DNA from: Streptomyces hygroscopicus | GTDB lineage: Bacteria > Actinomycetota > Actinomycetes > Streptomycetales > Streptomycetaceae | DNA: 64,000 nt | Direction of reading: 5' to 3' | NCBI GenBank assembly: GCA_002021875.1 | Contig: CP018627.1 | Span: 1,550,001 to 1,614,000 of the forward strand | Shown here: in pieces, positions 21,141-63,348 of the stretch | Layout: each line of letters begins with the position of its first letter | Numbering within the stretch: the stretch's first letter is position 1 | Position numbers and translations under genes: made by a program | Notes under the pieces: model-generated | Told to the model about the DNA's origin: nothing | What the model saw: the letters and a program-made list of their open reading frames with translations, nothing else | Database searches by the model: none

Positions 21141-21402
21141 CATCCTCCTCATCGCCACGGTCCGGATTCATGCTCGACGGGCGGGCTAAAGCTGGGCTAA
21201 CGCGAGCCCAGTGCGCCTCTTTTCGCGGGTCCCCCTCTTTCCGTATCGGTTCGTATCGATCGGGTCGTATCAGGGAGGAGGCCAAGCCGGGCGTTAGGCC
21301 CACTTTGGTGACGGCGCAAATGATGGTCGCCGTATCCGGACTGGCCGCCTGGCAGGTGGTTCAGCCGCAGGTCAGCGCCCGATTGACGGTTGGGAGTCGA
21401 GT

Positions 21403-42600: not shown

Positions 42601-43198
42601 CCTGGTGCGCGGCGCCGCCCCGCAGGCGGCCACCGGAGCCGCCGGCCCGGGCGGAGCGGCACCGGCGGAGGCGTTCGCCACCCTGTCCGAGGAGGACCGG
42701 CAGCAGGCGCTCCTCAAGCTGGTGCGCAATGCCACGGCGACGGTGCTGGGCCATGACACGGCGGATGCCATCCACCCCGCCCAGAACTTCCGGGAGCTGG
42801 GCTTCGACTCGCTGACCGCCGTGGAGCTGCGGAACCGGCTGGGCACCGCCACCGGTCTGCGGCTGCCCGCCACGCTGGTCTTCGACCACCCCACGCCCAG
42901 CGCGGTGGTACGGCTACTGCGGGAGCTCCTGGTCCCGGCCGGAGTAGCGCCGGGGGGCTCGCTCCTCACCGGCCTCGACGCCCTCGACGCCGCCTTGACC
43001 GGTGGAATCGCCGACCGCGAGCAGCGGGCCCGGATCGCGGTGCGGCTACGGGAACTGCTGCGCAAGGTGGACGGCCCGTGGCAGGGCGACGACGGCGACG
43101 ACCCCGCCGAGGAGGATCTGGCGTCGGCCAGCGACGAGGAGTTGTTCCAGGCGCTCGACAACGAGCTGACCGTCCCCTCCGACGACAGTCTCCGATGA
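36605..43198 (+). CDS. Type I polyketide synthase, module D: KS-AT(methylmalonyl)-DH-ER-KR-ACP
   Basis: About 2197 residues, ATG with AAGGAG upstream, 47 bases after the previous PKS. Order: docking coil 1-32; KS 33-455 (Cys206); AT about 565-860 (Ser664 in GHSQGE, YASH 767-770, so methylmalonyl); DH about 935-1210 (His976 in [10 protein letters not shown], where the usual Gly is Asp; Asp1143); ER about 1438-1744 (NADPH motif [13 protein letters not shown]); KR 1751-1990 (GGTGTLG, LRD in place of LDD so B-type, Tyr1899); ACP Ser2069; C-terminal docking helix. A full reductive loop should give a saturated alpha-methyl unit. In KR the position 13 before Tyr, normally the catalytic Ser, is Ala1886. 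Codon 495 is a rare TTA. Its AT region shares long near-identical tracts with module E. Confidence 0.95.
37964..38735 (+). repeat. KS-AT linker/AT tract copy 1 (module D)
   Basis: A 772-base segment almost identical to 44649-45420 in module E, followed by a diverged patch and then another near-identical block (38991-39182 versus 45676-45867). It carries a TTA codon at 38087 where the copy has CTG. Confidence 0.85.
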
Positions 43199-43289: not shown

Positions 43290-46200
43290 ATGACGGATGA
43301 CGAGAAGCTCCGCAGCTATCTCAAGCGGGCGACCGCCGATCTGCGTCTGGCCAGGCGGCAGTTGCGCGAGGTCGAGGACCGCGCCCGGGAGCCCATCGCC
43401 ATCATCGGGATGGCCTGCCACTTCCCCGGCGATGTGGCGACCCCCGAGGACCTGTGGCGGGTGGTGGACGAGGGCGTGGATGTCATCTCCTCGTTTCCCG
43501 AGGACCGTGGCTGGGACCTGGAGAACCTCTACGACCCGGATCCCGAGCATGCCGGTACCAGCAGCGCCCGCGAGGGCGGGTTTCTGCGCGATGTGGCCGA
43601 TTTCGACGCCGAGTTCTTCGGGATCAACCCGCGAGAGGCCGCGGCGATGGATCCGCAGCAGCGGCTTCTGCTGGAGACGGCGTGGGAGGCGTTCGAGCGC
43701 GCGGGGCTGACGCGGGAGGCGCTGAGCGGCAGCGCCACCGGGGTGTTCGCCGGAGTGGACTCGTACCACTATCTGTCGCTCATCGGCCAGACGACCGGCG
43801 ACTCGGCGGGCTATGTGGCCACCGGGAACCTCGGCAGCGTGGTCTCGGGCCGGGTGTCGTACTCGTTCGGCCTGGAGGGGCCCGCGGTCACGGTGGACAC
43901 GGCGTGCTCGTCGTCCCTGGTGGCCACGCATCTGGCGGTGCAGGCGCTGCGGCAGGACGAGTGTTCGCTGGCTCTGGCGGGCGGGGTGACGGTGATGGCC
44001 ACGCCCGGTGGGTTCACCGAGTTCTCACGTCAGCGCGCACTGTCCCCGGACGGGCGGTGCAAGGCGTTCGCCGCGGCGGCGGACGGCACGGGCTTCTCCG
44101 AGGGCGTCGGTCTGGTGCTGCTGGAGCGGCTGTCCGACGCACGGCGCAACGGGCATCGGGTGCTGGCGGTGATCCGGGGTTCGGCGGTCAATCAGGACGG
44201 CGCAAGCAACGGTCTTACGGCGCCCAACGGGCCCTCGCAGCAGAGGGTGATCCGGCAGGCGCTGGCGAACGCGGGGCTGTCGCCGTCCGAGGTGGACGCG
44301 GTGGAGGCGCACGGAACGGGCACGACGCTGGGCGATCCGATCGAGGCGCAGGCGCTGCTGGCCACGTACGGCCAGGACCGGCCGGAGGGACATCCGCTGT
44401 GGCTGGGCTCCGTCAAGTCCAACATCGGGCACACCCAGGCCGCCGCCGGAGTGGCGAGCATCATCAAGATGGTGGAGGCCCTGCGACACGGGGTGCTCCC
44501 CGCCTCGCTGCACATCGACGAGCCGACACCGCATGTGGACTGGGGCGCGGGCGCGGTGCGGCTGCTGACCGAGCCGGTCGGGTGGGCGGCGAACGGGCGG
44601 CCGTGCCGTGCGGGTGTGTCGTCGTTCGGCATCAGCGGTACGAACGCTCATCTGATCCTTGAGCAGGCCCCCGAACCGGCCGAGGCCACCCCCGCACCGG
44701 ACACCTCACCGGGCGGTGTTGCGGCGGGTGGTGTAGTGCCATGGGTGGTGTCCGGACGTGGCCGTGAGGCGCTGCGCGGCCAGGCCGCGGCACTGGCCGA
44801 ACGAGTGACCGCCAACCCCGAAGTCACACCGTCGGACATCGGCTGGTCGCTGATCAGCACCCGGTCCGTCTTCGACCACCGCGCCGTCATCATCGGCCAA
44901 CACCGCGACGAACTCCTGGCCGGACTCAACGCCCTGGCCACCGGCCACACCCACCCCACCCTCATCGAACCCGACACCACCGCCACCCCAGGCAGCATGG
45001 GACCGGTCCTGGTCTTCCCCGGCCAAGGCTCACAGTGGCTCGGCATGGGCGCCGGACTCCTCGACACCTCACCCCCCTTCGCCACCCGCATCACCGAATG
45101 CGAACAAGCCCTCACCCCCCACGTCGACTGGTCCCTCACCGACGTCCTACGCGGCGGCGTCAACGCCGCCGACCTCGCCCGCGTCGACGTCGTCCAACCC
45201 GTCCTATGGGCCGTCATGGTCTCCCTCGCCGCCGTATGGGACCACCACGGCCTCACCCCCACCGCCGTCGTCGGCCACAGCCAAGGCGAAATCGCCGCCG
45301 CCTGCGTCGCCGGAGCACTCTCCCTCGACGAAGGCGCCCGCATCGTCGCCCTCCGCGCCCACGCCCTCCGCCGCCTCACCGGCCACGGCGCCATGGCCTC
45401 CCTCACCATGAACCACCACCGGGCGAAGGAATTCCTGACCGGGCTCGGCGAACGCGCCGAAGGGGTGGGCGTGGCCGCCGTCAACGGGCCGGGGTCCGTG
45501 GTGGTCTCCGGGCCGCCGGAGCAGGTGGCCCACGCCGTGTCCGCATGCGAAGAGACAGGCCGCCGGGCCCGTCTCATCGACGTCGACTACGCCTCCCACA
45601 GCGCCCAAGTGGACGAGATCGCCGAGGAGTTGCATGAGCTTCTGGCCGGGGTCAAGCCGGTGCCCGGCCACGTGGCGTTCTACTCGACCGTCACCGGCGC
45701 CCGCATGGACACCAGCGGCCTCGACACCGACTACTGGGTCACCAACCTCCGCGAACAAGTACGGTTCGCCGACGCCGTACAAGCACTCCTCAACGACGGC
45801 CACCGCGTATTCATCGAAGCCAGCACCCACCCCGTCCTCACCATCGGCATGCAGGAGACCTTCGAGGAGGCGGGGGTCGACGCGGTGACCGTCCCGACCC
45901 TGCGGCGCGACCACGGTGGCCCGGACCAGCTGGCGCGGTCGGTGGCACAGGCGTTCACCGCGGGAGTCGCGGTCGACTGGACCCGCTGGTTCCCCGCCGA
46001 CCCCGCACCCCGCGCCATCGACCTGCCCACCTACGCCTTCCAGCGTGAGCGGTACTGGCTGGACGGAGCGGGCGGGCCGGGTGGCGATCCGGCCGATCTG
46101 GGTCTGACGTCCGCAGGCCATCCGCTGCTCGGCGCCGCCGTGGAACTCGCCGACGGCACCACCCATGTGCTCACCGGCCGCCTCTCCGCACGGTCCCACC

Positions 46201-49076
46201 CATGGCTCGCCGAGCATGTGGTGGCGGGTGCGGTGCTGGCACCGGGCGCGGTGCTGGTGGAGTGGGCGCTGCGAGCGGCCGACGAGGTCGGCTGCGGCGA
46301 GGTGGAGGAGCTCGCGCTGCAGGTTCCGCTGGCGCTGCCCGAGTCCGGTGCGCTGCGGGTACAGGTGGTGGTGGGTGCCGCGGCCGAGGACGGGCGGCGC
46401 GAGGTGCGGATGTACTCCCGCCCCGACCGGCTCGACGGCCCCGGCCAGGCCCTGGCCCTCGATTCCGGTCCGGACGCGGGGTGGGTGTGTCATGCGGTGG
46501 GCGTGCTCGCACCCGCTGCCGAGGAACCCGCACCGGTGGAGGGCCTGGGCGGGGTGTGGCCGCCACGGGGCGCCGAGCCGCTGGACGTCGGCGCCTTCTA
46601 CGAGCAGGTGATGGCGGCGGGTTACGGATACGGCCCGGCGTACCAGGGGCTGACGGCCGCGTGGCGTCATGGCCGGGATGTCCTCGCCGAGGTGGCACTG
46701 CCCGATGCCGCGGGTGGCCGGGACGGTTTCGGCATCCATCCGGCGCTGCTGGACGCGGCGCTGCATCCGTCGCTGCTGATGGACCGGCCCGAGGGTCAGG
46801 AGGACGACGGCAAGGTGTGGTTGCCGTTCGCCTGGAACGGCGTGTCCCTGTGGGCCACCGAGGCGGCCACGGTACGGGTGCGGCTGTCGCGGGACGAGGA
46901 GCGGCAGTCGCTGCGGCTGACGGTGGCGGACACGGTGGGCGCTCCGGTGCTCACGGTCGATTCGCTGGTGACCCGTCCGGCCGCGACGGACCGGCTGCGC
47001 GCGGCCGGGGCCGCCCGTACCGTGGACGGGCTGTTCACCCTGGACTGGACGCCGCTGCCCGTTCCGGCCACCGCACCGCTCCCCACGTCGGTGGTCGGTG
47101 AGGGCGGCTGGGTGGTGCTGGGCGAGGACCGGCTGGGGCTGGCGGAGCCGGTCGCGGCCGGGGTGAGCCCCGATGCCACGGTGTGCCATCCCGGCCTGGA
47201 GGCACTGATCGCGGCTGTGGACGCGGGTGAGCCCGCCCCTGCCGTCGTCCTTGCCCATCCGTACGCCGCTGAGGGCGGCCACGGGGACGGGCTGGGGGCG
47301 ACCGAGGAGCTGCTGGGGCTGGTGCAGTCCTGGCTGAGGCGGCCGGCCCTGGCCGATGCGCGGCTGGTGGTCGTCACACGGGGTGCGATGGCGGCGGGCC
47401 GTCCGGGTGATCACATCGACAACCCCGGTGACACTGCACTGGATCCGTCCGGTGCCGGGGCGTGGGGGCTGATCCGCAGCGCCCAGTCGGAGAACCCGGG
47501 CCGGTTCGTACTGCTCGACCTCGATGAGCGTCCCGAGGGCCTCGTGGCGGCCGTGGTGCGCGCGATCGAGTCGCATGAGCCCCAGGCGGCGCTCCGGGAC
47601 GGACGGGTGCTGGTGCCCCGTATGGTCCGCGCGACGGCAGCGGCGGCAACGACGGCCACACCGGGCCCGGCCGTCGACGACCAGGACGAGCAGGAGAAGA
47701 CCCCCCGACTCGGCGCCGACGGCACCGTGCTGATCACGGGTGGCACCGGCACCCTGGGCGCTCTGGTCGCCGAGCACCTGGTGCGCACCTGGGGAGTCGG
47801 GCATCTGCTGCTGGTGAGCCGGAGCGGTCCGGAGGCCGCCGGTGCCGATGAACTCACCGACAAGTTGACGGAGTTGGGCGCTCAGGTGCGGATCGCCGCG
47901 GTCGATGTCACCGACCCGGACGAGGTGGCCGCTCTGGTGGCCGGGGTCGATCCCGCGCATCCGCTGGCCGGTGTCGTCCATGCGGCCGGGGTGCTGGACG
48001 ACGCCGTCCTCACCACCCAGACCCCGGAGCGGCTGGCGCGGGTGTGGCGTCCGAAGGCCACGGCCGCGGCCCATCTGCACGCCGCGACGGCGGAGTTGCC
48101 GCTGTCCCTGTTTGTGATGTTCTCCTCCACGGCGGGCACGCTGGGCGCCTCCGGGCAGTCCAACTACGCTGCGGCGAACGCCTACTGCGACGCCCTGGCC
48201 GCCCGGCGCCGTGCCCTCGGCCTGCCGGGTCTCTCGGTGGCGTGGGGCCTGTGGGCGGACGCCAGCGGGATGACCGGGCACCTCGGGGAGGCGGACCGGG
48301 CCAGGATGGCCCAGTCGGGCATCGGGGCGATGTCCGGCGAGCGGGCGCTGGGGCTGCTGGACGCCGCCGTGCGCCACGGCCACCACCATCTGATCGCCAT
48401 CGATCTGGACGTACGGGCCCTGGCGGGACAGCCGGCGCTCACCCTGCCCGCTCCGCTGCGGGCGCTCACCGGTGGCGGCACGGCCCGGCGCACCGCGGCC
48501 ACCGCCCGGCCGCACACCGACTGGGCCGGTCATCTGGCCGCGCTGCCGCTGGAGGAGCAGCGCCGCACGCTGCTCAGTCTGGTCCTCACCCATGCCGCGG
48601 CGGCGCTGGGCCACTCCGACCCCGGGCGGATCCAGACCGAGCGCGGCTTCCTGGAGCTCGGCTTCGACTCGCTGACCGCGATCGAACTGCGGAACAGGCT
48701 GACCGCCGTGACCGGGCTGCGGCTGGCCACCACCCTGATTTTCGACCATCCGAATCCGGCCGCGCTCGCCGCGCATCTGCATACGGAACTGGCGCCCGAG
48801 GACGTGGATCCGCTCGCCCCGATGCTGGGCGAAATCGACAGGATGGAAAGCGCGCTGCTTTCCGTGGCCCAGGACGAGGCGGCGCAGGAAGCGCTGCTCA
48901 AGCGCCTTCGGAGCACGCTGTCGAAATTGGGCGCCCTGCACGGCGGCGGGACGGAGGAAGGGCCCGCGACCGGCCGCATTCAGGACGCCACGGCCGACGA
49001 GATCTTCCAGTTCATCGACCAGGACCTTGGCCGAAGCGACAGCAACGGAGAGCATGCACATGGGGGCACACGGTGA
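43290..49076 (+). CDS. Type I polyketide synthase, module E: KS-AT(methylmalonyl)-DH-KR-ACP
   Basis: About 1928 residues. Order: docking coil ([20 protein letters not shown]); KS 33-455 (Cys206); AT about 565-860 (Ser664 in GHSQGE, YASH 767-770, methylmalonyl); DH with intact [10 protein letters not shown] (His976) and [10 protein letters not shown] (Asp1155); KR from 1478 with LDD near 1569 (B-type) and Ser/Tyr1626/Asn intact; ACP Ser1794; C-terminal docking helix ([13 protein letters not shown]), so another protein should follow in the assembly line. The expected product is an alpha-methyl trans-alkene, the kind of trisubstituted double bond that polyether epoxidases use. No clear ribosome site precedes the ATG. 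The stop overlaps the start of the first SnoaL-fold gene (GTGA). Confidence 0.95.
44649..45420 (+). repeat. KS-AT linker/AT tract copy 2 (module E)
   Basis: Partner of 37964-38735, matching base for base over most of 772 bases with scattered synonymous-type changes. Flanking KS and post-AT patches are clearly more diverged. Confidence 0.85.
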
Positions 49077-49510
49077 TTGATGAGCGAAGCCGGAAGAAGC
49101 TCATCCTCGAGCACAGCCGCCGGATGAACGCCGCGGATATCGACGGGCTTCTCGAACTCTACGCGGACGAGGTCACTTTCGAGGATCCGGTCGGATCGGG
49201 ACGGAGGACCGGGCGGGACGCCCTTCGTGAGCATTTCGAGGAGCTCGCCGCGGCGGATATCAGCGAGATTCCCGGTGAGCCGGTCGCGGGACAGGACGGT
49301 GTGCATGTCCTGGTGCCGGTGACGGCCACCATGAACTATCTGCCCAAAGGCCCCGGATTCGCCGAGCGCGGCTGGCTGACGGCCCCGGACACCCCGGAGG
49401 ACTCCCGCATCACCTGGGACTACGTCCTGATGATGCGCGCGGGGGCCGGCGGTCTCATTCAGGAACTGCAGATGTTCTGGGGGAGGTCGGACATTGACAT
49501 CACCGGCTGA
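49073..49510 (+). CDS. SnoaL-fold polyether epoxide hydrolase/cyclase (MonB/Lsd19-like), first copy
   Basis: About 145 residues from GTG 49073, which overlaps the stop of module E (GTGA), so it is translationally coupled to the PKS. The protein is a small cone-shaped ketosteroid-isomerase-like fold. [13 protein letters not shown] carries Asp38, and Glu65 lies in DISEIPGEP. These match the Asp/Glu acid-base pair of MonBI and Lsd19A, which open epoxides and form the cyclic ethers. It acts in the cytoplasm on an epoxidised polyketide, probably still bound to an ACP. The two tandem copies recall MonBI and MonBII; which ring each would close is unknown. Confidence 0.87.
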
Positions 49511-49545
49511 TCCCCCACGACCCCGGCACCGCGCAGGAGGCGTTC

Positions 49546-50013
49546 ATGGCCGATGAGGCAACCCTCAAGAAGATGGCCCTGGAATACGCGCGGCGAATGA
49601 ACGCCGGTGATGTCGAGGCCGTATTGGAGCTGTTCTCGGACGACATCGTCTTCGAAGACCCGGTCGGCGCGCCCCCGCTCATCGGAAAGGACGCCCTTCG
49701 CGGACACATCGCCTGGTCCATCGAATGCCAGGTGCATGAGACCCCGGGCCGTCCGGTCACCTCGATGGACGGCCGCAGGGTGGCGGTGCCGACCACGGTC
49801 ACGGTGTACGCACCGGCGAAACTCACCTTCAGCATCATCGGCGTGATCGAACTCGGTGATGACGGTCTGGTCCATCACGCCCAGGCGTTCTGGGGCATCA
49901 CGGATACGAAAGTGGGCGACGGCCCCGAACTCAGCGGTGTCGCGCATTTCATGGCGGTCACCCAGAACCTCGCCAAGATGGTCCAGGCCAAGGGCAGCCC
50001 CAGTCCGATGTAA
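49546..50013 (+). CDS. SnoaL-fold polyether epoxide hydrolase/cyclase, second copy
   Basis: About 155 residues, ATG behind a perfect AGGAGG. It is homologous to the previous gene along its length (EYARRMNAGDVEAVLELFSD, FEDPVG), with the same Asp38 and Glu65 positions, so both copies look catalytically competent. It has an extra C-terminal helix (GVAHFMAVTQNLAKMVQA) absent from the first copy, which may aid dimer or partner contact. The loop around residues 95-115 also differs, so the pair probably act on different epoxides. It sits between the first copy and the epoxidase, the arrangement expected in a polyether cluster. Confidence 0.88.
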   Translation: MADEATLKKMALEYARRMNAGDVEAVLELFSDDIVFEDPVGAPPLIGKDALRGHIAWSIECQVHETPGRPVTSMDGRRVAVPTTVTVYAPAKLTFSIIGVIELGDDGLVHHAQAFWGITDTKVGDGPELSGVAHFMAVTQNLAKMVQAKGSPSPM

Positions 50014-50048
50014 AAGGCCGTAAGCGGTGAAGGGACGAAAGCAGAACC

Positions 50049-51479
50049 ATGACCGAACCCAAGCACGGAATCGTTCTGGGCGGAGGCTGGGCGGGAATGC
50101 TGGCTGCCCATGTGCTGGCCCGCCATCTGGAGCGCGTCACCGTCGTGGAGCGCGATGTGCTGCCGGACGGCCCCCGGCACCGTAAGGGATCGCCGCAGGG
50201 ACGCCATGTCCATGTGCTGTGGTCCAGCGGTGCGCGCATCGTGGACACGCTGCTGCCGGGCATGATCGACCAACTGCTCGACGCGGGCGCCCGCCGGATC
50301 GGATTCCATCAGGACCTGGTGACCTTGACGTCCCACGGCTGGCAACACCGCTTTCCACCGCGGCAGTACGCCCTGATGTGCACCCGCCCGTTCCTGGACT
50401 GGAAGGTCCGCGACCGCGTTCTGGCCACCGGGCGGATCACCTTACGCCAGCGCGCCGAGATCCTCGATCTGGTCGGCGACGCCGAACGGGTCACCGGGGT
50501 CCGGGTGCGCGACATGGACACCGGTGCGCAGGAAACGCTGGAGGCCGATCTGGTGATCGACGCCTCCGGGCGCGGTTCCCGGCTCCGGCACTGGCTGTCG
50601 GCGCTGGAGGTGCCGCCGCTCGAGGAGGACATCGTCGACGCGGGCATCGCGTACGCCACCCGCGTCTACCAGGCGCCGCCGGGTGCCGCCGCCGGATTCC
50701 CCGCCGTCAACGTGGCCGCCGACCACCGGCTGCGCGAGCCGGGCCGGTTCGGGGTGGTGTATCCGCAGGAGGACGGCACCTGGATGGTGACCCTGTCGTG
50801 CACCCGGGGCGCCGGACTGCCCGCGCACGACGACGACTTCCTGCCCTACGCCCGGACGCTGCGCCATCCGCTGGTCGCCGATCTCATCGACCTCGCGAAG
50901 CCGCTGACCTCGGTGGCCGTCTCGCGTGTCGGCGCCAACCGGCGGCTGTATCCGGAGCGGCTGGACATCTGGCCGGAGGGGCTGCTGGTGCTCGGCGACG
51001 CGCTGGCCGCGTTCAACCCCATCTACGGCCATGGGATGAGCTCCGCGGCTCGTGCGGCCGCCGCGCTGGACACCGCGCTGCAGCGGTCCGGGGCCGATGT
51101 GGGAGCGACCCGCCGGGCTCAGCAGGCGATCAGTGCCACCGTGGACGATCCCTGGATCATGGCCGCGTCCAAGGATGTGGAGTACGTCAACTGCCGGATG
51201 AGCATGACGGATCCGCGGCTGACGGGCGGGGCCGTGGCCCGGCAGCGCTTCTCCGATCTGATCGCCGACCGGTCGATCCGTTCCTCGGCGGTGTGTGATG
51301 TGGTGACCGATGTCATCAGCCTGACCGCCCCGCAGTCCGAGCTGGCGTCCAGCCGCTTTCTGTCGCTCATGCACAAGGACCGGGTCCTTCCGGAGCTCAC
51401 CGAGCCGCCGCTGACCGCCGATGAGCTCGCGCTGGTGAATCTGACTCCGCGCAGCACGGTGAGTGCGGGCGGCTCATGA
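50049..51479 (+). CDS. FAD-dependent polyether epoxidase (MonCI/Lsd18-like)
   Basis: About 476 residues. The N-terminal FAD motif [18 protein letters not shown] is followed by the family block [20 protein letters not shown], close to my recollection of Lsd18 and Mon[15 protein letters not shown] is the second nucleotide motif and [18 protein letters not shown] the FAD-ribose motif. By family knowledge the enzyme uses FAD, NAD(P)H and O2 to epoxidise several trans double bonds of the linear polyene before the epoxide-opening cascade. Codon 132 (50442-50444) is a rare TTA, so expression may depend on bldA. Its stop overlaps the start of the KS-like gene (ATGA). It is one of the strongest pieces of evidence for a polyether product. 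Confidence 0.92.
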
Positions 51480-54400
51480 GCAACGAGGAAAAGCTCGTCG
51501 ACTATCTCAAGTGGACCACGGCCGAGCTCCATGAGACCCGGCAGCGGCTGCGGGAGGTCCGGGCGGAGCTGGCGGAGCCGATCGCCGTCGTCGGCATGGC
51601 CTGCCGCTTTCCCGGCGGAGTGCGCACCCCGGCACAGCTGTGGGACCTGGTGGCCGACGAGCGGGACGCGGTCTCCAGCTTCCCCACCGACCGGGGCTGG
51701 GACCTGGAGAACCTCTATCACCCCGATCCGGAGCACCACGGCACCTCATACGTCCGGGCCGGCGGCTTCATCTATGACGCGGCCGACTTCGACGCGGAGT
51801 TCTTCGACATCGGCGCCCGGGAGGCGGCGGCCATCGAACCGCAGCAGCGGATGCTGCTGGAGCTGGCCTGGGAGGCGACGGAGAGCGCGGGCATCGATCC
51901 GCACACCCTGCGAGGCAGCCGGACCGGCGTCTATACGGGGGTGATGTACCACGACTACGCCTCGCGTCTGGAGGAGATCCCCGAGGGCCTGCTGGGCCAT
52001 GTGGGCAACGGCAACGCGGGCAGTGTGTCCTCGGGCCGGGTGGCGTTCACCCTAGGTCTGCAGGGCGCGGCGGTCTCCTTGGACACCGCGTGTTCGTCGT
52101 CGCTGGTGGCGATGCATCTGGCGGCCGGATCGCTGCGGCGGGGCGAGTGCACGCTGGCGCTGGCCGGTGGCGCCGCCATCATGTACACCGCGAGCGTCTT
52201 CCAAGTGGCCTCCAGCCAGCGCCAGTTGTCCCCCGATGTCCGGTGCCGGTCGTTCGCGGACGCCGCCGACGGCATGGTGTACGGGGAGGGCGCCGGTCTG
52301 GTGCTGCTGGAACGGCTTTCGGACGCGCGGCGGAACGGGCACCCGGTGCTGGCCGTGATCCGCGGCTCGGCGATCAACCAGGACGGTGCCAGTACGGGCA
52401 TGGCCGCTCCCAACGGTCCCGCCCAGCAGCAGCTCATCCGCGACGCCCTGGCGGACGCCCGGCTCTCCACGGGGGACGTGGACGCGGTGGAGGCGCATGG
52501 CACCGGTACCGCGTTCGGCGACTCCATCGAGCTCCAGGCACTGCTCGCCACGTACGGCCAGGACCGTCCGGACGACCGGCCGCTGCTGCTGGGATCCATC
52601 AAGTCGAACCTCGGTCATACGCAGGCCGCCGCCGGAATGGCCGGTGTGATCAAGATGGTGATGGCGATGCGCCGGGGCGTGCTGCCGCGTTCGCTCCACA
52701 TCGACCGGCCGACCCGGCTGGTGCACTGGCGCAAGGGCGCGGTGCGGCTGCTGACCGAGCGGATGGACTGGCCGCGGATGGACCGGCCCCGGCGTGCCGG
52801 GGTGTCCTCGTTCAGCGCCAGCGGCACCAACGCCCATGTGATTCTCGAGGAGTTCACCGAATCGGTGGAGCCCGCTGCCGGCGACAGTGGCGCCCGCGAT
52901 GCGGGGGTGGTGCCGTGGGTGCTGTCCGCGCGGGGCGCGGCGGCGCTGCGCGGACAGGCCCGTGCGCTGGCCGCGCATACGGCGGCGGCCGGTCCGGGGC
53001 TGTCCCCCGCCGGTGTGGGATGGTCGCTGGTGACCACACGGTCGGCCTTCGACCACCGGGCGGTCGTGGTCGGCCGGGGACCGGACGAGCTGAGCGCGGG
53101 GCTGGCGGCGCTGGCGGCCGGTGAGCCGCATCCCTCGGTGGTGGGGCCCGAGGTGGCCCGTACCGGCACGGCGGCGGCCTCGGCGGGCAGGACGGTGTTC
53201 GTCTTCGGCGGCGAGGGTGGCCACCTGCCGCAGACCGGTTCCGAGCTGTACGACCGGTTCCCCGTCTTCGCCACGGCCTTCGACGAGGCCGGTGAGTTGC
53301 TGGGCATGAAGGGGGACCGCGACGCGTCCTCCCGGGAGGGGCTGTTCGCCCTCTACGTCGCACTGGCCCGGCTGCTGGCCTCGGTGGGGGTGCGCCCCGA
53401 CGCGGTGGTGGGCTGTGGGGTCGGTGAGATCGCGGCGGCGCACATCGCCGGTGCTCTCGACCTCGCCCACGCCTGCCGCATGGTGGCCGCCGGCACCGAC
53501 CCGAGCACGGTGGAGTACGAGCGGCCGTCCCTGCCCTCGCTGGACGAGGCCGGTGCGGTGTGGGAGCTGGGGCCGGAGGCGATGCCGGCCTCCGCCCCGG
53601 CGGCGCTGGTGCTGTCGCCCTTCCGGGGCGAGGGGTCCGAGAGGTCCGAGGTGCGGGGGCTGATGTGCGGCCTGGCCCGTATGCACACCATGGGCGCCAC
53701 CGCGGACTGGGCCGCGCTGTTCGACGGCGATCCGGCTCCCCGCACCGTCGCCCTGCCCACCTACGCCTTTCAACGACAGCGCTTCTGGCTGGAGGACGAG
53801 GCTCCGGCGGATGCCGAGTCCCGGGTGGAGACCTGGGCGGACGCCGAGTTCTGGGATGCCGTGGCCCGTACGGACACGGCGGCCCTGACCCGGGCTCTCG
53901 AGGTCCCCGCCGGCCGGCGGGAGGTGCTCGCGGAGATCCTGCCCGCCCTGGCCACCTGGCGGCGGCAGCGGGAGTGGCGCTACCGCATCGCCTGGAAGCC
54001 CCTCGCCGACCCGTCGGCGCCACGGCTGACCGGCACCTGGCTGGTCGTGACGTCCGGCCACAGCGGGTCCGGTGACAACGGGTCCGGAGACAGCAGCTCC
54101 GGTGACAGCGGCGGCGACGCCACGGTGGCCGCCGTGACCAACGCGCTGCGCCACCATGGCGCCGAGACCGTCGTGTTCGCCCCGGACACCACATCACCGG
54201 ACGACGAGGCGCGGGCCCGGCGGATGTCCGAGGCCGTAGGCGGGCGGCCGGTCGCCGGGGTGCTCTCCCTGCTGGCGGTGGAGACACCGGCCGACGACGG
54301 GCGCGGCCCGGCGCTCGCCCCGACCCTCGACCTGTTCGAGACGCTGCGGCGGGCCGGGATCGAGACCCCGGTGTGGCTGGCCACCCGTGGTGGCGTCGGC

Positions 54401-55426
54401 GTCGACCTGGGCGATCCGGTGTCCCGTCCGGAGCAGGCCCGGTTCTGGGGTCTGGGCGGTGCGCTGGCGATGGAGCGTCCGCGCTGGTGGGGCGGGCTGA
54501 TCGACCTGCCGGAGCGGTTCGACGACCGGGCGGGACGGCGGCTCGCGGGGGTCCTGGCCGGGGCGTACGGCGAGGTGGAGGTGGCCGTGCGCGGCGACAG
54601 CTGCTTCGCCCGGCGCCTGGTGCGCGACATCCCCACGGCCCTGCCCAGCCCTGCTCGGCGGCTCCGGGGAACGGTCCTCATCACGGGCGCGGCCACCACT
54701 CTGGCCGCGCATACCGCCCGCTGGGCGGCCGAGGGCGGCGCCGAACACCTGCTGCTGGTCGACACCGCACCACCGGCCGCCGACCTGGTGGCCGAGCTGA
54801 GCGCCATGGGCGTACGAGTGTCCGCGGCCACCGTCGATGTGGCGGACCCGGAGGCGCTCGCCGCGGCGGTCGCGGACCTTCCCGCGGAGTTCCCCCTGAC
54901 GGCCGTTCTGCATCTCACGGCACCGCTGGCCGCCGAGGCGGGGCAGCTGGAGACGGCGCGGATCGAGCGCGAGTGGGCGGCGACGGTGGCGGGCGCGGTG
55001 AACCTCTGCGCCCTCGGCAGCAGCCATGAGCTGTCGGCCCTGGTGCTCGGGTGCTCGATCGCGGGCGTCCTGCCCAGCCCGGGTCTGGGCAACCAGGCAC
55101 CGGCCCACGCCTATCTGAGCGCGCTCGCCCAGGAGTGCCGGGCACGGGGCGTTCCGGCGACCTCGGTGTGCTGGGGTTCGATCGACGACCCCGACACGGC
55201 CGTCGGCGCCGCCAAGCAGCTCCGGACCAACGGGATGCCCGCACTGCCCCAGCGCTCGGCCGCCGGCCTGCTGCGGCAGGCGGTCATGGCGGACACGGCG
55301 GCCGTGGTCATCGCGGACATCGACTGGAGCTGGATGACCGCACACGCCTCCGAGCTGGGAAGACATCGGCTCTTCGATGACCTTTCCGGCCCTTCGGCCA
55401 CGGCGCACACGCACCTCGGTCGGTGA
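51476..55426 (+). CDS. KSX-type protein: intact KS with decayed AT and KR remnants, no ACP
   Basis: About 1316 residues. It opens with a normal docking coil ([20 protein letters not shown]) and an intact KS (Cys206, His341, His381). The AT remnant (about 575-760) is some 175 residues shorter than in the working modules, and its GHSxGE motif has become GCGVGE (Cys647, Gly648 in place of His and Ser). The specificity motif is gone. The KR remnant reads GAATTLA at the nucleotide site and has Gln1207 in place of the catalytic Tyr, with His where Asn should be. No ACP follows in the chain, but a free ACP gene overlaps its stop. This matches the KSX class of polyether clusters, thought to move the finished chain to a discrete ACP for oxidative cyclisation. 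It cannot extend by itself. Confidence 0.88.
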
Positions 55427-55869
55427 TCACGCCGACCGGCCCCAACCAGGCGGGAGTACCGATGAACGCACACACCACCGTCAACAACCACACCCCCGGC
55501 GACGCCGGCCCTCAAGGAGACGGATCCGCGATGCAGACGGAGAAGAGCGAGACCGCACTGGACGGGGCGGCGCTGCACCAGGCGCTCGCCATCGCCACGG
55601 CCGAGGAGCGCGAGGACATCCTGCGGGAGACCGTACGGACGCAGCTCGCCGACATCCTGGCACCCGCCGTTGTGGACGACGACAGCAACTTCCTGGAGAA
55701 CGGGCTGACTTCGCTGACCGCTCTCGAACTCACCCGCAATCTCATGACGCTCACCGACGTGGAGATCCCCCTCGTCGCCATTCTGGAGTACCCCACCCCC
55801 GCCCAGCTCGGCCACTACCTCGCCGAGGCGTACGCCGCGGTCAACTCCGGTGACGGCGCCACGGCCTAG
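55423..55869 (+). CDS. Discrete acyl carrier protein (ACPX-type)
   Basis: Up to 148 residues. The GTG at 55423 overlaps the KSX stop (GTGA). ATG 55462 (GGGAG five bases upstream) is a good alternative start that would remove 13 residues. The first 50 residues are low-complexity. The ACP fold follows, with the phosphopantetheine Ser97 in [11 protein letters not shown], where the usual Asp before Ser is Thr. Helix III reads [16 protein letters not shown]. By analogy with monensin- and nanchangmycin-type clusters it holds the full-length chain during epoxidation and ring closure. A strong terminator follows at once, so it is the last gene of the plus-strand operon. Confidence 0.88.
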
Positions 55870-55886
55870 TCCGGGCCGCAGGGCAC

Positions 55887-55929
55887 AACGCCGCGCGGGA
55901 GGGGGACAAACCCCCTCCCGCGCGGCGTT
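55887..55929. terminator. Perfect 19-bp stem-loop terminator
   Basis: Arms 55887-55905 and 55911-55929 are perfectly complementary around the loop acaaa, and a short T-run follows (55928-55931). It lies between the free ACP stop and the convergent P450 stop and would serve both strands. Confidence 0.92.
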
Positions 55930-55962
55930 TTCCTGTCGGTGATACGCGGTTCCGCCAGTGCG

Positions 55963-57222
55963 TCAGAACGCGCAGTCCACGTGCTTGATGGCCTCGACGA
56001 AGCTGGCCACCAGCCGCCGGGGCTCCCCCACCGTGCGGATCTCCGGCAGCCGGCTGAACAGCTCCCGGAAGAGCACCGTGACCTCCATGCGGGCGAGATG
56101 GGCACCCAGGCAGAAGTGCGGGCCGACCGACCCGAAGGTCATATGCGGATTGGGGTCCCGGGTGATGTCGAACTGATAGGGGTCGGTGAAGACGTCCTCG
56201 TCCCGGTTGGCGGACCAGTAGAAGAGCAGCAGCTTGTCGCCCTCCTGGAAGCGGTGGCCGTTCACCTCGCAGTCCCGCTTGACGGTTCGGCGCATCCAGT
56301 TGATGGGGGTCGCGACCCGCAGAATCTCCTCGACCGCGCCCGGCGCGTAGGTCTCGAAGTCGGAGAGCAGCAGCTTCCGCTGCTCCGGATGTTCGGTGAG
56401 CAGCACCAGACCACGTGAGATCGCGTTACGGGTGGTCTCCATTCCGGCGACGACGAGCAGGATGAAGAAGGAGGAGAGCTCTTCGGGGCTCAGCCGCTCA
56501 CCGTCGATCTGCGCCTGCACCAGCCGGGTGACCAGATCTCCGGTGGGGTTACGGGTGCGGTCGGCGGCGAGCCGTGAGATGTAGTCGGCGAGTTCATGTG
56601 AGGTCTTCAGCAGGGCGGCGGTGGCCTGATCGGCCCGGGGAACGTATTCGGGGTCGAAGGTGCCGACGATGACATTGGACCGGTCGTAAATGAACTCGTA
56701 GTCGTCGCCGGGAATCCCCATCATGCCGCTGAGCACCGCGATCGGCATGATCGCCGCGACGTTCCGGACGAAGTCGCCCGGGCCGTCCGCGATGAGGTCG
56801 TCGACAATCTTCCGGGCCGCCTTTTGGGAGGCCACCTCGAACTCGGCGGCCATTCCCCGGCCGAAGGCGCGGGACACCAGCCGGCGCAGCCGGGCGTGCT
56901 GGGGATTGTCCATATTGATCATCGATCCGAAGAAGCTGTTGAACTCCTCCGGCAGATCGATGATGCTGATCGCGGTGGGCAGCGAGCCGAAGTCCTGCGG
57001 ACGCCGGCTCACCTCGGCGATATCGGCATGCCTGACCATCGCGTAATAGCCGGACCCACGCCCGAACCCGGGCATGACCGGTTCGCGGAAGAGCATGGGC
57101 TCCGGCCGCCGGCGCAGCGCCGCGAAGGCGGCGTCACGGTCGCCGTAGGGCTGGGCCCAGAAGGACAAGTCGGTGAGGTCGATGTTGTCGACATGGGCGA
57201 GCCTCGATTCCGGGGGATACAC
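55963..57222 (-). CDS. Cytochrome P450
   Basis: About 419 residues, GTG start behind GTGAGG. Diagnostic sites: the I-helix oxygen-activation motif AGMETT near residue 259, the K-helix EEILR, and the heme-binding loop FGSVGPHFCLGAHLARME with Cys371 as the iron ligand. The overall pattern resembles actinobacterial CYP124/125/142-like enzymes. Placed among polyether genes, it most likely hydroxylates or oxidises the cyclised backbone late in the pathway, as P450s do in other polyether clusters; the carbon attacked cannot be predicted. It needs ferredoxin and a reductase, neither of which is encoded nearby. It diverges from the thioesterase gene. Confidence 0.93.
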   Translation of the reverse strand: MYPPESRLAHVDNIDLTDLSFWAQPYGDRDAAFAALRRRPEPMLFREPVMPGFGRGSGYYAMVRHADIAEVSRRPQDFGSLPTAISIIDLPEEFNSFFGSMINMDNPQHARLRRLVSRAFGRGMAAEFEVASQKAARKIVDDLIADGPGDFVRNVAAIMPIAVLSGMMGIPGDDYEFIYDRSNVIVGTFDPEYVPRADQATAALLKTSHELADYISRLAADRTRNPTGDLVTRLVQAQIDGERLSPEELSSFFILLVVAGMETTRNAISRGLVLLTEHPEQRKLLLSDFETYAPGAVEEILRVATPINWMRRTVKRDCEVNGHRFQEGDKLLLFYWSANRDEDVFTDPYQFDITRDPNPHMTFGSVGPHFCLGAHLARMEVTVLFRELFSRLPEIRTVGEPRRLVASFVEAIKHVDCAF

Positions 57223-57394
57223 AGCGCCTCACTTCAGCTCGGAGTCTACGGTCGGCAAAAGAGTTGGATCGGCATGAGAGCATAAATCGCCCGGCGGTCC
57301 AGCATCTCGCGCCCCGCTTAAGCGCCGCTAATCTGCGCATACATCACATCCCCAGCGGTCGAATCGGATTGGGCGGCCCGGCTAGAATTCCGGC
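57223..57394. promoter_or_regulatory. Divergent promoter region of P450 and thioesterase
   Basis: A 172-base gap between two divergent starts, less GC-rich than the flanks around 57,240-57,290. It contains a perfect 10-base palindrome CGCTTAAGCG (57315-57324) that could bind a regulator of both genes. No regulator gene is adjacent. Confidence 0.45.
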
Positions 57395-58261
57395 ATGGAT
57401 CTTTCCGTGCCCGTAACCGACGATGTGAAATTGCATTTCCGGCACCGGCCGGGAACGGCGTCGCTTCCCTTTCTCCTGGTCCATGGCATGGCCTCCAGCG
57501 CCCGGCTGTGGGACGAGGTCGCCGACCATCTGGCAGCCGCGGGCCATGCGGTGTACGCGGTGGATCTGCGCGGCCACGGGGACTCCGACACACCGGAGAC
57601 CGGCTACGACACCCCGACCGCGGTCGCGGATCTGGTGGCGTCGGCCGCCGCCCTCGGGCTGGACCGGGTGGTGGTGGCCGGTCACTCCTGGGGCGGCAAT
57701 GTCTCGGTGCGGCTGACCGCCGAACACCCCGAACTGGTGGCCGCGCTGGCCCTCGTGGACGGCGGCTGGCTGGAGCCGGCCAAGGCGTTCGCCTCCTGGG
57801 ACGCGTTCGTCGGGGCGTTGCGGCCCGCGTCCCTGGAGGGCGCCACCGTGCAGAGCGTGCGCGACTACTTCCGCGCCATCCACCCGGACTGGTCCCCGGC
57901 GGCGATCGAGGCCGCGGTGGACACGATGCTGGTGAACCCGGACGGGTCGCTGTCCCGGCGCATGTCCACCGAGCAGCACATGTCGATCCTGCACAGCATC
58001 TGGAACGAGCCGCCGAGCCCGTGGTACGCGGCCATCACGGTGCCCACCCTGCTGATGCCCGCCATTCCCAAGGGCGCGGACGGGAAGTGGGCGGACCGCA
58101 TCCGCTCCCGTATCAGGGAGACCACGGCCGACCTGCGCCACGCCACGATGCGGGAATATCTCGACTCCGAGCACGATCTGCACGCCCAGCGTCCCCGGCG
58201 GGTGGCCGACGATCTGCTCGACCTGGCCCGCGGCGTCCAGCCGGCCCGCGGCGCTCACTGA
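57395..58261 (+). CDS. Discrete type II-like thioesterase for polyether release (MonCII/NanE-like alpha/beta hydrolase)
   Basis: About 288 residues of the alpha/beta hydrolase fold: oxyanion strand LLVHGMASSARLW, RGHGDSDTP, nucleophile elbow GHSWGGN with Ser98, and a C-terminal His in SEHDLHAQRP near residue 253. The elbow has Trp after Ser, as in many epoxide-hydrolase-like members. In polyether clusters a protein of this kind (MonCII, NanE) was first taken for an epoxide hydrolase and later shown to cleave the finished polyether from its ACP. No TE domain is fused to any PKS seen here, which supports a releasing role. A true epoxide hydrolase or lactonase remains possible. Confidence 0.82.
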   Translation: MDLSVPVTDDVKLHFRHRPGTASLPFLLVHGMASSARLWDEVADHLAAAGHAVYAVDLRGHGDSDTPETGYDTPTAVADLVASAAALGLDRVVVAGHSWGGNVSVRLTAEHPELVAALALVDGGWLEPAKAFASWDAFVGALRPASLEGATVQSVRDYFRAIHPDWSPAAIEAAVDTMLVNPDGSLSRRMSTEQHMSILHSIWNEPPSPWYAAITVPTLLMPAIPKGADGKWADRIRSRIRETTADLRHATMREYLDSEHDLHAQRPRRVADDLLDLARGVQPARGAH

Positions 58262-58347: not shown

Positions 58348-61300
58348 TCAGACTCCGAGTTCGCGGTCGATGAGGGCGAACACCTCGTCGGCGGTGGCCG
58401 CCGTCAGGTCCTGCTCGTCCGCCGGTCCGCCGGCCTCCTGCTCGGTGGCGGTGTACTTCCACACCAGGGCCTGCAACCGGTTCACCAGGCCGGCTCGCCG
58501 CGGGTCGCCGGTCGGCAGCCCGGCCAGCGCGGCCTCGAGTTCGTCGAGGTGTCCGGACAGCGGCTGTGCCGCACCGGTCTCCCCCGGGTCCACCTCGGCC
58601 AGCAGATGGCCCGCCAGCGCCCGGGGGGTCGGATAGTCGAAAACCACCGTCGTCGGCAGGCTCAGCCCCGTGGTGGCGCGCAGCCGGTTCCTGAGCTCGA
58701 CGGCCGCGATGGAGTCGAACCCCAGCTCCTTGAACGGGCGGTCCGGCTCGACCGCTTCCGGCGCCGGATAGTGCAGTACGGCGGCCACATGGGCGCGTAC
58801 CAGCGCCAGCAGCCGCTCGACCCGCTCGTCCTCGGCCAAGGGGCCCAGCTCTCGCCGCAGCGCCGACGCCTCATCGGTGCCGGTGTCCTCCGCGGCTCCC
58901 CGCGCGGCCTCGATGGCCCGGCGGGCGGCCGGAATGTCGTCGAGGAGCCTGCTGGGGCGGGCGAGGGTGAACAGCGGCGCGAAGCGCTCCCATTCCACAT
59001 CGGCGATCGTGACGCGCGGATCGTCGTGGTCGAGCACCTGGCGCAGTGCGGTCAGCGCCGGCCGTGGGTCCAGCGGGGACAGGCCCTGCCTCCGGGAGCG
59101 CTCGGTGTGCGCGGCCACCGGCCCGTCCGGGGTGTCACCGCCGTACGGCAGATCCCACAGCCCCCACGCGATCGAGACGGTGGGGCGGCCGTCGGCCCGG
59201 TCGCGCCGCGCCAGCGCGTCGAGGCAGGCGGTGGCGGCCGCGTAGGAGCCGTGGTCCTTGCTGCCCCAGGACGCGGCGACGGTGGAGAAGTAGACCACGG
59301 TGTCCTCAGGGCCCATACCGCAGAGTTCGTCCAACCGGCGCCCGGTGTCGTCCAGATGGGCGCGGATCTCCTCGGTCAGCCGCTGTGGGGTGAGGTCCAT
59401 CAGCGGGGCCAGTTCTCCGGAGGCCGAGGTGTGGATGATCGTCCCGATGCGTCCACTCGCCTCCGCCACCCGCTCGACGAGGCGTGCGGTGCCGTCCCGG
59501 CCGGCGGGTGAGTGGTCCGCCACGGTGAGTCCGGTGCCGAGCGCGTCCAGTTCGGCCTTCAGCTCCACTTCGGCCTTCAGCTCCATGGCGCCGGGGGCGT
59601 CGCCACCTCCGGGGCTCAGCATCAGGATGTGTTCGGCGCCGTCGGCGGCCAGCCGGCGGGCGACATGGGCGGCTGGTCCGTCGGCGGTCCCGGTGATGAG
59701 CACGGTGCCCCGGGGCTTCCAGGTGCGCCGCGGGGCACGGCCGCCGATCGGGTCGGGGACCAGCCGTCGGCCGTACGCACCGGTCGGGCGCAGCGCCGCC
59801 TCGTCCTCGCCGCAGGCCCCGGTGAGCACGGCGCGCAGCCGCTCCGCGTCCAGAGTGTCCGGGCTCGCGGGCAGGTCCACCAACCCGCCCCACCGGTCGG
59901 GGTGTTCCAGGGCGGCCACCCTGCCGAGCCCCCACAGCTGGGCCTGGTGGGGAGCGCTCAGGGGGTCGGAGTCGTCGATGGCGACCGCGCCGCGGGTGGC
60001 ACACCACAGGGGCCCGGTGACGGCGGCGTCCACCAGGGCCTGGAGCAGGGTGAGCGTGCCGGTCAGGCCGGGGGCCACGCCGGGGAGCGGCCGCGCGTCG
60101 TCGTCCAGGGCCAGCAGCGACAGTACGCCCGTCGGTGGCGTCTCCTCGGCGCACCGGGAGCGCAGCAGTTCGGCGAGCCCCTCCCGGTCGGTGTCCTCGG
60201 CCAGCTCCAGCCTGCGCACCTGGCCGCCGTCCGCGCCCAGCGCCCGTACGCAGGCATCCGTCCAGCCGTCGGCGGCGCCCTTCGGGTGGACCACGAGCCA
60301 GGAGCCCGCGGTGGCGGGGGCGGCATCGGTGACGGGCCGCCACTCGACGCGGTAGCGCCAGGAGTCCACGGCGGAGCGCTCACGACGGCCGCGACGCCAT
60401 GTCGAGAGCGCGGGGAGCACGGTGCCCAGCGAGGTCCGGTGACCGGTGCCGTCCGGGAGGCTCAGCGTCTCGGAGAGCGCGCTGAGGTCCTCTCCCTCCA
60501 CCGCGGCCCAGAACCGGGACTCCTCCTCGTCCGCCGGGGACTCGGTGGCGAAGGACACCGAGTCGGCCAGCCAGTACCGCTCCCGCTGGAAGGCGTAGGT
60601 GGGCAGTTCGACGGTGTGCGGGGCGGCGGGGCCGGTGGGGTGGAGGGTGGTCCAGTCGACGGCGACGCCCACGGTGAAGGCCAGCGCGAGGGACTCGATC
60701 AACCGCGCCGGGCCGCCGTGGTCGCGCCGGAGCGTGGGCACGGTGACCGCGTCGGCCCCGGCTTCCTCGAAGCTCTCCTGCATTCCCACGGTCAGTACGG
60801 GATGGGTACTGCTCTCGATGAACACGCGGTGGCCGTCGGCCAGCAGCGCCTGGACGGTGTCGGCGAACCGCACCGGCTCACGGAGGTTGGTCACCCAGTA
60901 CGCGGTGTCCAGCCCGGTGGTGTCGATCCGCCGGGCGGTGACCGTGGAGTAGAACGCCACCTTGGACGCGACCGGCCGGACGCCCGCCAGTGCCTCCGCC
61001 AGCTCGTCGGCGATCTCGTCCACCTGGGGGCTGTGCGAGGCGTAGTCCACCTCGATCGGCCGCGCCCGGTCGCCCGCCTCCTGACACGCCGCCACGGCGT
61101 GCGCCACCTGCTCGGGCGGACCGGAAATCACCGTGGAGAAGGGGCCGTTGACGGCCGCCACGCCGACGGCCGCCGCCTGGTCGCCCAGAGCGGCCAGCAG
61201 CTTCCCGGCCCGCTCCCGGCTCACTCCCAGGGAGGCCATCGCCCCGCCACCGGCGAGCCGCCGCAACGCCTTGCTGCGCAGCGCCACCACCTTGGCGCCG

Positions 61301-63348
61301 TCCTCCAGCGACAGGGCCCCGGCCACCACGGCCGCCGCGATCTCGCCCTGGCTGTGCCCGATCACCGCCCCGGGACGTACGCCGTGGCCTGCCCACACCG
61401 CGGCGAGCGACACCATCACGGCCCACAGGACGGGCTGCACCACATCGACACGGCCCAGGTCGGCCGCCCCGTCGGCGCCCCGCAGCACATCGGTGAGGGA
61501 CCAGTCGACGTACGGCGCGAGCGCCCGTTCGCACTCCGCCACGCGGGCCGCGAACACGGGTGCGGCGTCGAGCAGTTCGGCGCCCATGCCCGCCCACTGC
61601 GAGCCCTGGCCGGGGAACACCAGCACCGGGCCCAGGTCCCCGGCCACGACGGCGCCACCGGGGTGGACGAGGCCCGGATGTGTTCCGCCGGTGGCCAGTG
61701 CCTCCACGGCCGCCATCAGTTCTTCGCGGGTCTCGCCGACGGCCACGGCCCGGTGGTCGAACACCGAGCGGGTGGTGACCAGCGACCAGCTCACATCGGC
61801 GATGGACAGCCCCGGGTCGACGGCCATCCGCCGGGCGAGCGCCGCCGCCTGTCCCCGCAGGGCCTGGGCGCCACGGGCGGACAGCGCCCAGGGCACCACC
61901 GCCGTCGCCGCTGCCTCGGGAGCGGGGTCGGCGGGCACCGGCCGGTCAGGGGGGCTGGGCTCGGGGGCCTGTTCCAGGATCAGATGGGCGTTGGTGCCGC
62001 TGATCCCGAAGGAGGACACCCCGGCCCTGCGGGCTCGCTCACTCCTCGGCCACGCCACCGGTTCGGTCAGCAGCCGTACCCCGCCGCCTTCCCACTCCAC
62101 ATGAGGGGACGGCTCATCGATGTGCAGGGTGACCGGCAGCGTCTCGTGCCGGAGCGCCATCACCATCTTGATGACACCGGCCACTCCGGCGGCCGCCTGG
62201 GCATGGCCGATGTTCGACTTGAGCGACCCCAGCCACAGGGGCCGTTCACCGGGCCGGTCCCGTCCGTAGGTGGCCAGCAGCGCGTGTGCCTCGATCGGGT
62301 CGCCGAGGGAAGTCCCCGTACCGTGCGCCTCCACCGCGTCCACCTGGTCGGCGGCGAGGCGCGCGTCGGCCAGCGCCTGACGGATCACCCGTTCCTGCGA
62401 TACGTCGTTGGGCGCGGTCAGACCGTTGCTGGCACCGTCCTGGTTGACGGCCGAGCCCCGGATCAGGGCCAGCACCCGATGCCCGTTGCGCCGTGCGTCG
62501 GACAGCCGCTCCAGCAGCACCAGACCGACGCCCTCGGAGAACCCGGTGCCGTCCGCGGCCGATGCGAAGGACTTGCAGCGGCCGTCCGGGGCCAGCCCGC
62601 GCTGCCGGGAGAACTCGGCGAAGGCGGTCGGAGTGGTGAGCGCGGTGACCCCGCCCGCGAGCGCCAGATCGCATTCGCCCTGACGCAGCGCCTGGCTCGC
62701 CAGATGCATCGCCACCAGCGACGACGAGCACGCCGTGTCGACGGTCACCGCCGGGCCCTCCAGACCGAGGGTGTACGCCACCCGGCCGGAGACCACACTG
62801 GTGAGGCTGCCGGTGGTGGCATAGCCCTCGAAGCCCTCGGGGACCCGGGGCATCCGGGACATGTAGTCCTGGCTGGACACGCCCGCGTACACACCGGTCC
62901 GGCTGCCCTTCACCGTCACCGGGTCGACCCCCGCGCGCTCGAACAGCTCCCAGGCCACCTCCAGCAGCAGCCGCTGCTGCGGATCCATCGCCAGGGCCTC
63001 GCGCGGGCTGATCCCGAAGAACTCCGCGTCGAAGCGGTCGGCGCCGTCCAGGAATCCGCCGTGCCGGACGTAGCTGGTGCCGGGGTGGTCGGGGTCGGGG
63101 TGGTAGAGGCCCTCCAGATCCCAGCCGCGGTCGGTGGGGAACGCGGTGATGCCGTCGCCACCGGAAGCCACCAGCTCCCACAGCTCCTCGGGGCAGCCGA
63201 CACCACCCGGATAGCGGCAGGCCATGCTCACGATGGCCACCGGCTCCTGGGATCGCTCCTCCATCTCGCGCAGCCGCTGACGAGCCTGCCCGAGATCCAC
63301 CGTGACCCGCTTCAGATACTGGCGGAGTTTCTCTTCCGTACCCGACAT
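58348..63348 (-). CDS. Type I polyketide synthase, one module: KS-AT(methylmalonyl)-inactive KR-ACP
   Basis: About 1666 residues. Order: docking coil ([20 protein letters not shown]); KS 34-455 (Cys207, complete His pair); AT about 565-865 (Ser666 in GHSQGE, YASH 769-772, methylmalonyl); structural and catalytic KR halves about 975-1450; ACP Ser1546 ([10 protein letters not shown]); C-terminal docking helix ([13 protein letters not shown]). The KR looks dead: the nucleotide motif is GTADGPAA instead of GGTGxLG, the catalytic Lys is His, Ser is Thr1356 and Asn is Thr1373, though Tyr1369 remains. There is no DH or ER. The module should therefore add a propionate unit left as a beta-ketone, the feature needed for a spiroketal or hemiketal. 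It starts 16 bases after the upstream PKS stop, in one minus-strand operon. Confidence 0.94.
59551..59586 (-). repeat. 18-bp in-frame tandem duplication inside the inactive KR
   Basis: Two adjacent 18-base copies differing at one base (59551-59568 and 59569-59586) encode the doubled [12 protein letters not shown] segment after the first KR helix. Active KRs in the window lack the second copy, which fits a domain no longer under selection. Confidence 0.8.

Follow-up and report, generated by a model that had tools for sequence, protein, structure and literature searches.

A 64,000-nucleotide stretch of the Streptomyces hygroscopicus chromosome (bases 1550001-1614000 of one 12,012,215-base chromosome; hereafter the window) carries modular polyketide synthase (PKS) genes on both strands, with a block of polyether tailoring genes between them. 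From sequence comparison we conclude that this region is almost certainly part of the nigericin biosynthetic gene cluster, which would span window coordinates ~21403 to 116600. A sequence-only reading of the window had held that its module order matches no nameable polyether and that the product may be new. We found that the six modules it saw correspond to nigericin modules 9-14 and that the whole line fits nigericin; the misreading arose because the PKS line runs over both strands and is cut by the window. A possibly new ionophore is thus settled as a known one, and no effort is needed to isolate it as new. The cluster is already known, and the stretch is ordinary save for one little-studied gene whose putatively ring-forming protein seems to be exported.

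The assembly line and its regulator

Genes were called over 200 kb around the window with a home-made codon-bias caller, which returned 94 genes. The caller sets some starts wrong, and those of the SARP regulator gene (14 codons late) and the orf9-like gene (28 codons late), both described below, were amended by eye using frame translations. The direct observations are the genes present, the domains and their order, active-site and extender motifs, regulator hallmarks and conservation in relatives. In window coordinates, nine PKS genes on two strands make up one assembly line. Its minus-strand part, six genes from 114029 down to 58348, is used first, and its plus-strand part, three genes from 22092 up to 49076, is used afterwards. 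Of the cluster's 16 ketosynthases (KS), one is the loading module's KSQ, 14 belong to the extension modules and one to the KSX protein. The PKS genes that fall within the window are listed here; the first four were assigned from acyltransferase (AT) motifs, Pfam and motif checks.

22092-36557, plus strand: nigAVII-like PKS, modules 10-12, each malonyl with an A-type ketoreductase (KR)
36605-43198, plus strand: nigAVIII-like PKS, module 13, methylmalonyl, fully reducing, with dehydratase (DH), enoylreductase (ER) and KR
43290-49076, plus strand: nigAIX-like PKS, module 14, methylmalonyl, DH-KR
58348-63348, minus strand: nigAVI-like PKS, module 9, methylmalonyl, degenerate KR, beta-keto
63365-64000, minus strand: end of the nigAV-like PKS gene (modules 7-8), which extends beyond the window to window coordinate 75508 and has only its final 636 bases within it

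Every AT motif across the line is either HAFH or YASH, which we take to mark malonyl and methylmalonyl, respectively, and the A-type KRs of modules 10-12 were assigned with a motif that we presume to define that type. Reductive domains were determined with Pfam on each module together with motif checks. In four of the 10 DH domains, all of which carry an HxxxGxxxxP-type motif, D replaces the G. Module 1 contains a DH and no KR, and the KR of module 9 has lost its cofactor motif, so both modules should leave a ketone. The predicted chain begins with a malonyl starter at the KSQ loading module and continues (M, malonyl; mM, methylmalonyl) through modules 1-5 as mM/keto, mM/alkane, M/ene, mM/alkane and mM/ene, modules 6-10 as M/alkane, mM/ene, mM/alkane, mM/keto and M/OH, and modules 11-14 as M/OH, M/OH, mM/alkane and mM/ene. 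Within the window, this agrees with the sequence-only reading, which had correctly described three acetate units with A-type KRs, a reduced and an unsaturated propionate unit, and a beta-keto unit on the other strand. That reading had also proposed to obtain the flanking sequence and assign all modules; doing so gave a loading module and 14 extension modules in nigericin order.

We compared the predicted chain with nigericin, taking as reference a structure whose methyl branches are at C2, 4, 12, 14, 16, 20, 22, 26 and 28. In it the carbons at the ketone level are C13 and C29, oxygen is carried by C7, C9 and C11, and the three pairs that derive from epoxides are C16/17, C20/21 and C24/25. Against this reference structure, 14/14 modules agree in both extender and beta-carbon. 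For the same parts placed in random order, the chance of such agreement is 1 in 2002 x 2,522,520, or ~5 x 10^9 arrangements, a figure that assumes independent modules and serves as a yardstick only. Four modules form alkenes; modules 3, 5 and 7 match the three epoxide positions, and module 14 fits the closure of ring A.

The right end of the cluster is closed by a methyltransferase gene and a SARP activator gene, both lying to the right of the loading gene; in the gene calls, 279 bases separate the loading gene from the methyltransferase start. The SARP protein has Trans_reg_C and BTAD domains. With its start shifted 14 codons upstream, to window coordinate 115818, codon 22 is TTA and BTAD covers 103-248. 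In the report on NigR of S. malaysiensis F913, the TTA lies at codon 22, the BTAD domain spans 103-248 and NigR is the sole regulator of the nigericin cluster (PMC9312159). Here, 19 genes run from the orf9-like gene through to the SARP gene, and no second regulator was found among them. The same source places CGWWWCCG sites in the orf9 promoter, the nigD-nigC gap and the nigAI-nigE gap (PMC9312159), and the motif occurs in two of these three places here, at 21331 (upstream of the orf9-like gene) and 114184 (in the gap between the loading gene and the methyltransferase gene). Directly to the right of the SARP gene, at window coordinates 116627-116857, lies a gene for a 76 aa DUF5988 protein (L020).

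The deposited nig references are the Streptomyces sp. DSM4137 record and ON664936. With the nig clusters of DSM4137 and S. malaysiensis F913 the cluster shares chain length, extender order and beta-processing, a P450 gene that adjoins the releasing hydrolase gene, a methyltransferase gene that adjoins the loading gene, and a single SARP with its TTA at codon 22 and BTAD at 103-248. By these comparisons, a full-length match to a known cluster holds at the level of architecture and regulator.

Tailoring and release genes and a proposed pathway

Seven tailoring and release genes lie between the two parts of the PKS, at the places and with the broad identities that the sequence-only reading had given them.

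49073-49510, plus strand: SnoaL-fold epoxide hydrolase, MonBI-like (SnoaL_2; nearest solved relatives MonBI/MonBII, then Lsd19/LasB)
49546-50013, plus strand: SnoaL-fold epoxide hydrolase, MonBII-like (SnoaL_2; same nearest solved relatives in the same order)
50049-51479, plus strand: flavin (FAD) epoxidase, MonCI-like (nigCI), from its score to MonCI
51476-55426, plus strand: KSX, with KS motifs intact and AT and KR as dead remnants (domain and motif checks)
55423-55869, plus strand: lone discrete acyl carrier protein (ACP), ACPX (domain search)
55963-57222, minus strand: cytochrome P450, nigD-like, CYP124/125-related (nearest PDB matches)
57395-58261, plus strand: discrete alpha/beta hydrolase, presumed releasing thioesterase, nigCII-like (GHSWG motif; domain search)

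In the solved MonBI-MonBII chain, the MonBI half is the top match of the first SnoaL protein and the MonBII half that of the second. The epoxidase lies nearer to MonCI, with 642 bits, while Lsd18/LasC reaches 471 bits. The KS of KSX keeps its Cys and both His motifs; its AT lacks GHSxG, its KR lacks GGxGxxG and the Tyr, and no ACP was found within the protein. The earlier assignment to a polyether ionophore pathway is supported. Calling the set complete was too generous, as modules 1-8, the loading module, the methyltransferase and the regulator fall beyond the right end of the window and a spirocyclase-like gene lies to the left of the block. The last extension module has no thioesterase domain. 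Release had been ascribed to a "MonCII/NanE-like thioesterase", and here the alpha/beta hydrolase with its GHSWG motif stands, while the name rests on the gene's place in the block and its conservation with the block, not on a solved homologue. Nearest to the P450 in the PDB are CYP125 and CYP124, entries named steroid C26-monooxygenase and methyl-branched lipid omega-hydroxylase, and on this account the enzyme would suit hydroxylation of the C30 methyl. NCBIfam gave no further family above its cut-off among the matches listed for the seven proteins (the best 25 of 42 and 25 of 31 for two of them). A third SnoaL protein, a possible closer of ring A, was sought among the 94 genes over 200 kb, and none like the two known was found at E 1.

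In the monensin pathway, according to PMC3943991, KSX hands the chain over to ACPX and MonCI introduces three epoxides; the rings are closed under the action of MonBI and MonBII, the molecule is completed by a P450 and a methyltransferase, and MonCII releases it. NigCII has been proposed to release nigericin likewise (PMC4147253), and NigBI and NigBII are proposed hydrolases (PMC8827043). From homology and these published monensin and nigericin pathways, we infer the following steps and product. The KSQ loading module and 14 extension modules would build an ACP-bound polyene chain, which KSX would move to ACPX. The MonCI-type epoxidase would then convert the alkenes of modules 3, 5 and 7 into three epoxides, and the two SnoaL proteins would drive the ether-forming cascade. 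The methyltransferase would cap the C11 oxygen and the P450 would hydroxylate C30, the terminal methyl; release of nigericin would fall to the discrete hydrolase. The SARP activator would switch the cluster on.

Relatives of the cluster and competing products

Conservation was surveyed in 392 genomes of the genus, with the strain's own genome counted. An epoxidase of at least 92% identity occurs in eight, own genome included, and a ninth (G179) has a partial match at 88%. A scan of named genomes covered 37 loci, and in 16 (L050-L064 and L075) the block keeps one order (SnoaL pair, epoxidase, KSX, ACP, releasing hydrolase), with epoxidases of at least 81% identity. The P450 lies within the block in 14 of the 16. 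NigR was found in each of six genomes searched (82-97% identity), at 63.7-73.8 kb from the epoxidase vs 65.8 kb here; in S. violaceusniger NBRC 13459 the NigR match is split in two pieces. At least three more loci (L068, L073 and L084) hold a looser tailoring set, at 43-69% identity, that presumably serves other polyethers. PMC9045263 describes conservation of the nigericin cluster among the species nearest Streptomyces sp. 11-1-2, and the host comes from a Streptomyces group in which the cluster is known. Among 72,556 plasmid records, 30 have a relative at E 1e-60; none reaches 60% identity, and by this measure no plasmid carries a nigericin cluster. No passage on nig genes was found in PMC11074319.

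Several points weigh against the nigericin assignment. The 14/14 fit depends on the nigericin structure taken as reference, carbon by carbon. From the orf9-like gene to NigR we count 95.2 kb and 19 genes, against the published 97.9 kb and 20 genes, and the likeness to the nig cluster is known from architecture, not at base level. At the third published regulator site, between nigD and nigC, the nearest CGWWWCCG copies (57205 and 57412) lie just inside the called genes and none lies in the gap; the motif is also common, with 61 copies in 200 kb. For the releasing hydrolase, the PDB offers generic hydrolases with a top score of 61 bits and no near relative.

A cluster with the same PKS chain could have grisorixin (which lacks the C30 hydroxyl), abierixin or another nigericin-group compound as its main product, and the PKS cannot distinguish these products; such congeners are reported beside nigericin (PMC9045263). 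Two of the 16 syntenic loci lack the P450 in the block, L060 (Streptomyces sp. NBRC 110028), where it was sought in a 15.4-kb locus only, and L075 (S. himastatinicus ATCC 53653), where the best match genome-wide is 41% identical and the epoxidase match is interrupted. The absence of the P450 predicts, on sequence grounds, grisorixin-type products for both clusters; in S. himastatinicus the 41% match suggests a product without the C30 hydroxyl. Here, however, the P450 is full-length and the methyltransferase is kept, both late enzymes that nigericin needs, and we regard a congener as the main product as improbable. That the product is a new polyether, as first proposed, could still draw on the fact that the nigericin match stands at the level of architecture and regulator, not of bases or stereochemistry. 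We rejected this very improbable reading because all 14 modules fit nigericin and the NigR hallmarks agree; the block, moreover, is common to 16 of the 37 named loci. A monensin-type cluster, which the epoxidase and both hydrolases might suggest and with which the cluster shares its MonCI-type epoxidase, MonBI/MonBII pair, KSX, ACPX, P450, methyltransferase and discrete thioesterase (PMC3943991), is close to impossible and was rejected on module count and extender motifs. Monensin has 12 extensions and an ethyl branch from one ethylmalonyl unit, whereas here there are 14 modules, malonyl and methylmalonyl motifs only and no ethyl branch.

Elsewhere on the chromosome, two MonCI-like FAD proteins are encoded, L012 (G000:C1:2022931-2024274, 40%) and L013 (G000:C1:927272-928534, 38%), and among the matches listed no ketosynthase lies within 20 kb of either. 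A ketosynthase search of the whole chromosome gives 151 matches (E 0.001 or better), which points to further large PKS clusters.

A spirocyclase homologue with a signal-like N-terminus

At the left end of the nigericin cluster, 41 bases before the gene for modules 10-12, ends the orf9-like gene, which by its position is presumably the published orf9.

21403-22050, plus strand: orf9-like gene, OlmO/OssO-type spirocyclase homologue (predicted structure and profiles), with a signal-like N-terminus at 21403-21540 and the mature part from 21541

The protein has no Pfam or NCBIfam family above cut-off. An AlphaFold2 model built with 16 aligned sequences reached a pLDDT of 92.1 and a pTM of 0.84, and in Foldseek its top PDB matches were OssO (E 7.4e-11) and OlmO (E 1.4e-10), with TM scores of 0.73-0.78. 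The human nitrobindin domain comes next at E 3.4e-5, and for that reason the barrel alone is no proof of a cyclase. A sequence profile, which took in three more distant relatives, reached OssO at E 2.5e-24 and OlmO at E 2.6e-26; single-sequence phmmer gave 8.7e-15 and 9.8e-16, respectively. By predicted fold and by profile, the protein is a member of the OlmO/OssO spirocyclase family of oligomycin and ossamycin biosynthesis, with 24-26% identity in the structural alignment. The ossO gene likewise adjoins a PKS gene, an OssO homologue in the nigericin cluster has already been published, and remote homologues are also noted in clusters that make products with no need of a spiroacetal (PMC6490886).

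In the genus survey, a homologue of at least 41% identity occurs in 13/392 genomes, and 12 further genomes have one at 33-40%. The same 13 genomes have a best epoxidase of at least 69%, and none of the 379 others holds an orf9-like homologue at or above 41%; the overlap does not represent 13 independent events, since the genomes are related and both identity lines were set after the lists had been seen. A hypergeometric figure computed for it is not read as a probability, related genomes not being independent. The distance from the orf9-like gene to the epoxidase is 28.4-29.5 kb in eight of nine genomes measured. In three genomes whose best epoxidase is 62-63% identical, and which are not shown to produce monensin, no orf9-like match was found at E 1e-10. 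Monensin also contains a spiroacetal, and the missing matches in these three genomes make a general need for the gene doubtful.

All 13 nigericin-type copies have a hydrophobic segment ahead of the barrel; in most of them a charged stretch precedes this segment and the residues where cleavage is presumed are small. The 15-residue mean hydropathy is at least 1.89 in 12 of them, and in the remaining copy, L106, the segment becomes visible once the frame is read further upstream. The 12 weaker relatives include a group of four, a member of which scores 223 bits to OssO, and a fifth protein that scores 202 bits to OlmO. Unlike the orf9-like protein, these five OssO/OlmO-type relatives have no hydrophobic segment (hydropathy 1.1 or less). 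Three others (L108, L112 and L115, 70-74% identical to one another) do have one, at 1.7-2.2, so that the signal-like segment is not unique to the nigericin type; the last four have hydropathies of 1.2 or less.

We suggest, tentatively and as a rather unlikely reading of these sequences, that nigericin-type clusters carry an exported spirocyclase and that, if it works as an enzyme, one ring of nigericin would close outside the cytoplasm on the released molecule. Candidates would be formation or correction of the C13 spiroacetal, or closure of a late ring (ring A, for instance). This would contrast with the standard polyether scheme, in which ring closure happens on ACPX, and a spirocyclase homologue with an export-signal-like N-terminus would bear on the place and timing of polyether ring closure.

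Two of the surveyed genomes, G297 (locus L031) and G073 (L030), carry two tandem MonCI-like epoxidases at a spacing of ~3.5 kb, with identities of 69-70% and 63-65% to the epoxidase here, and both hold an orf9-like gene.

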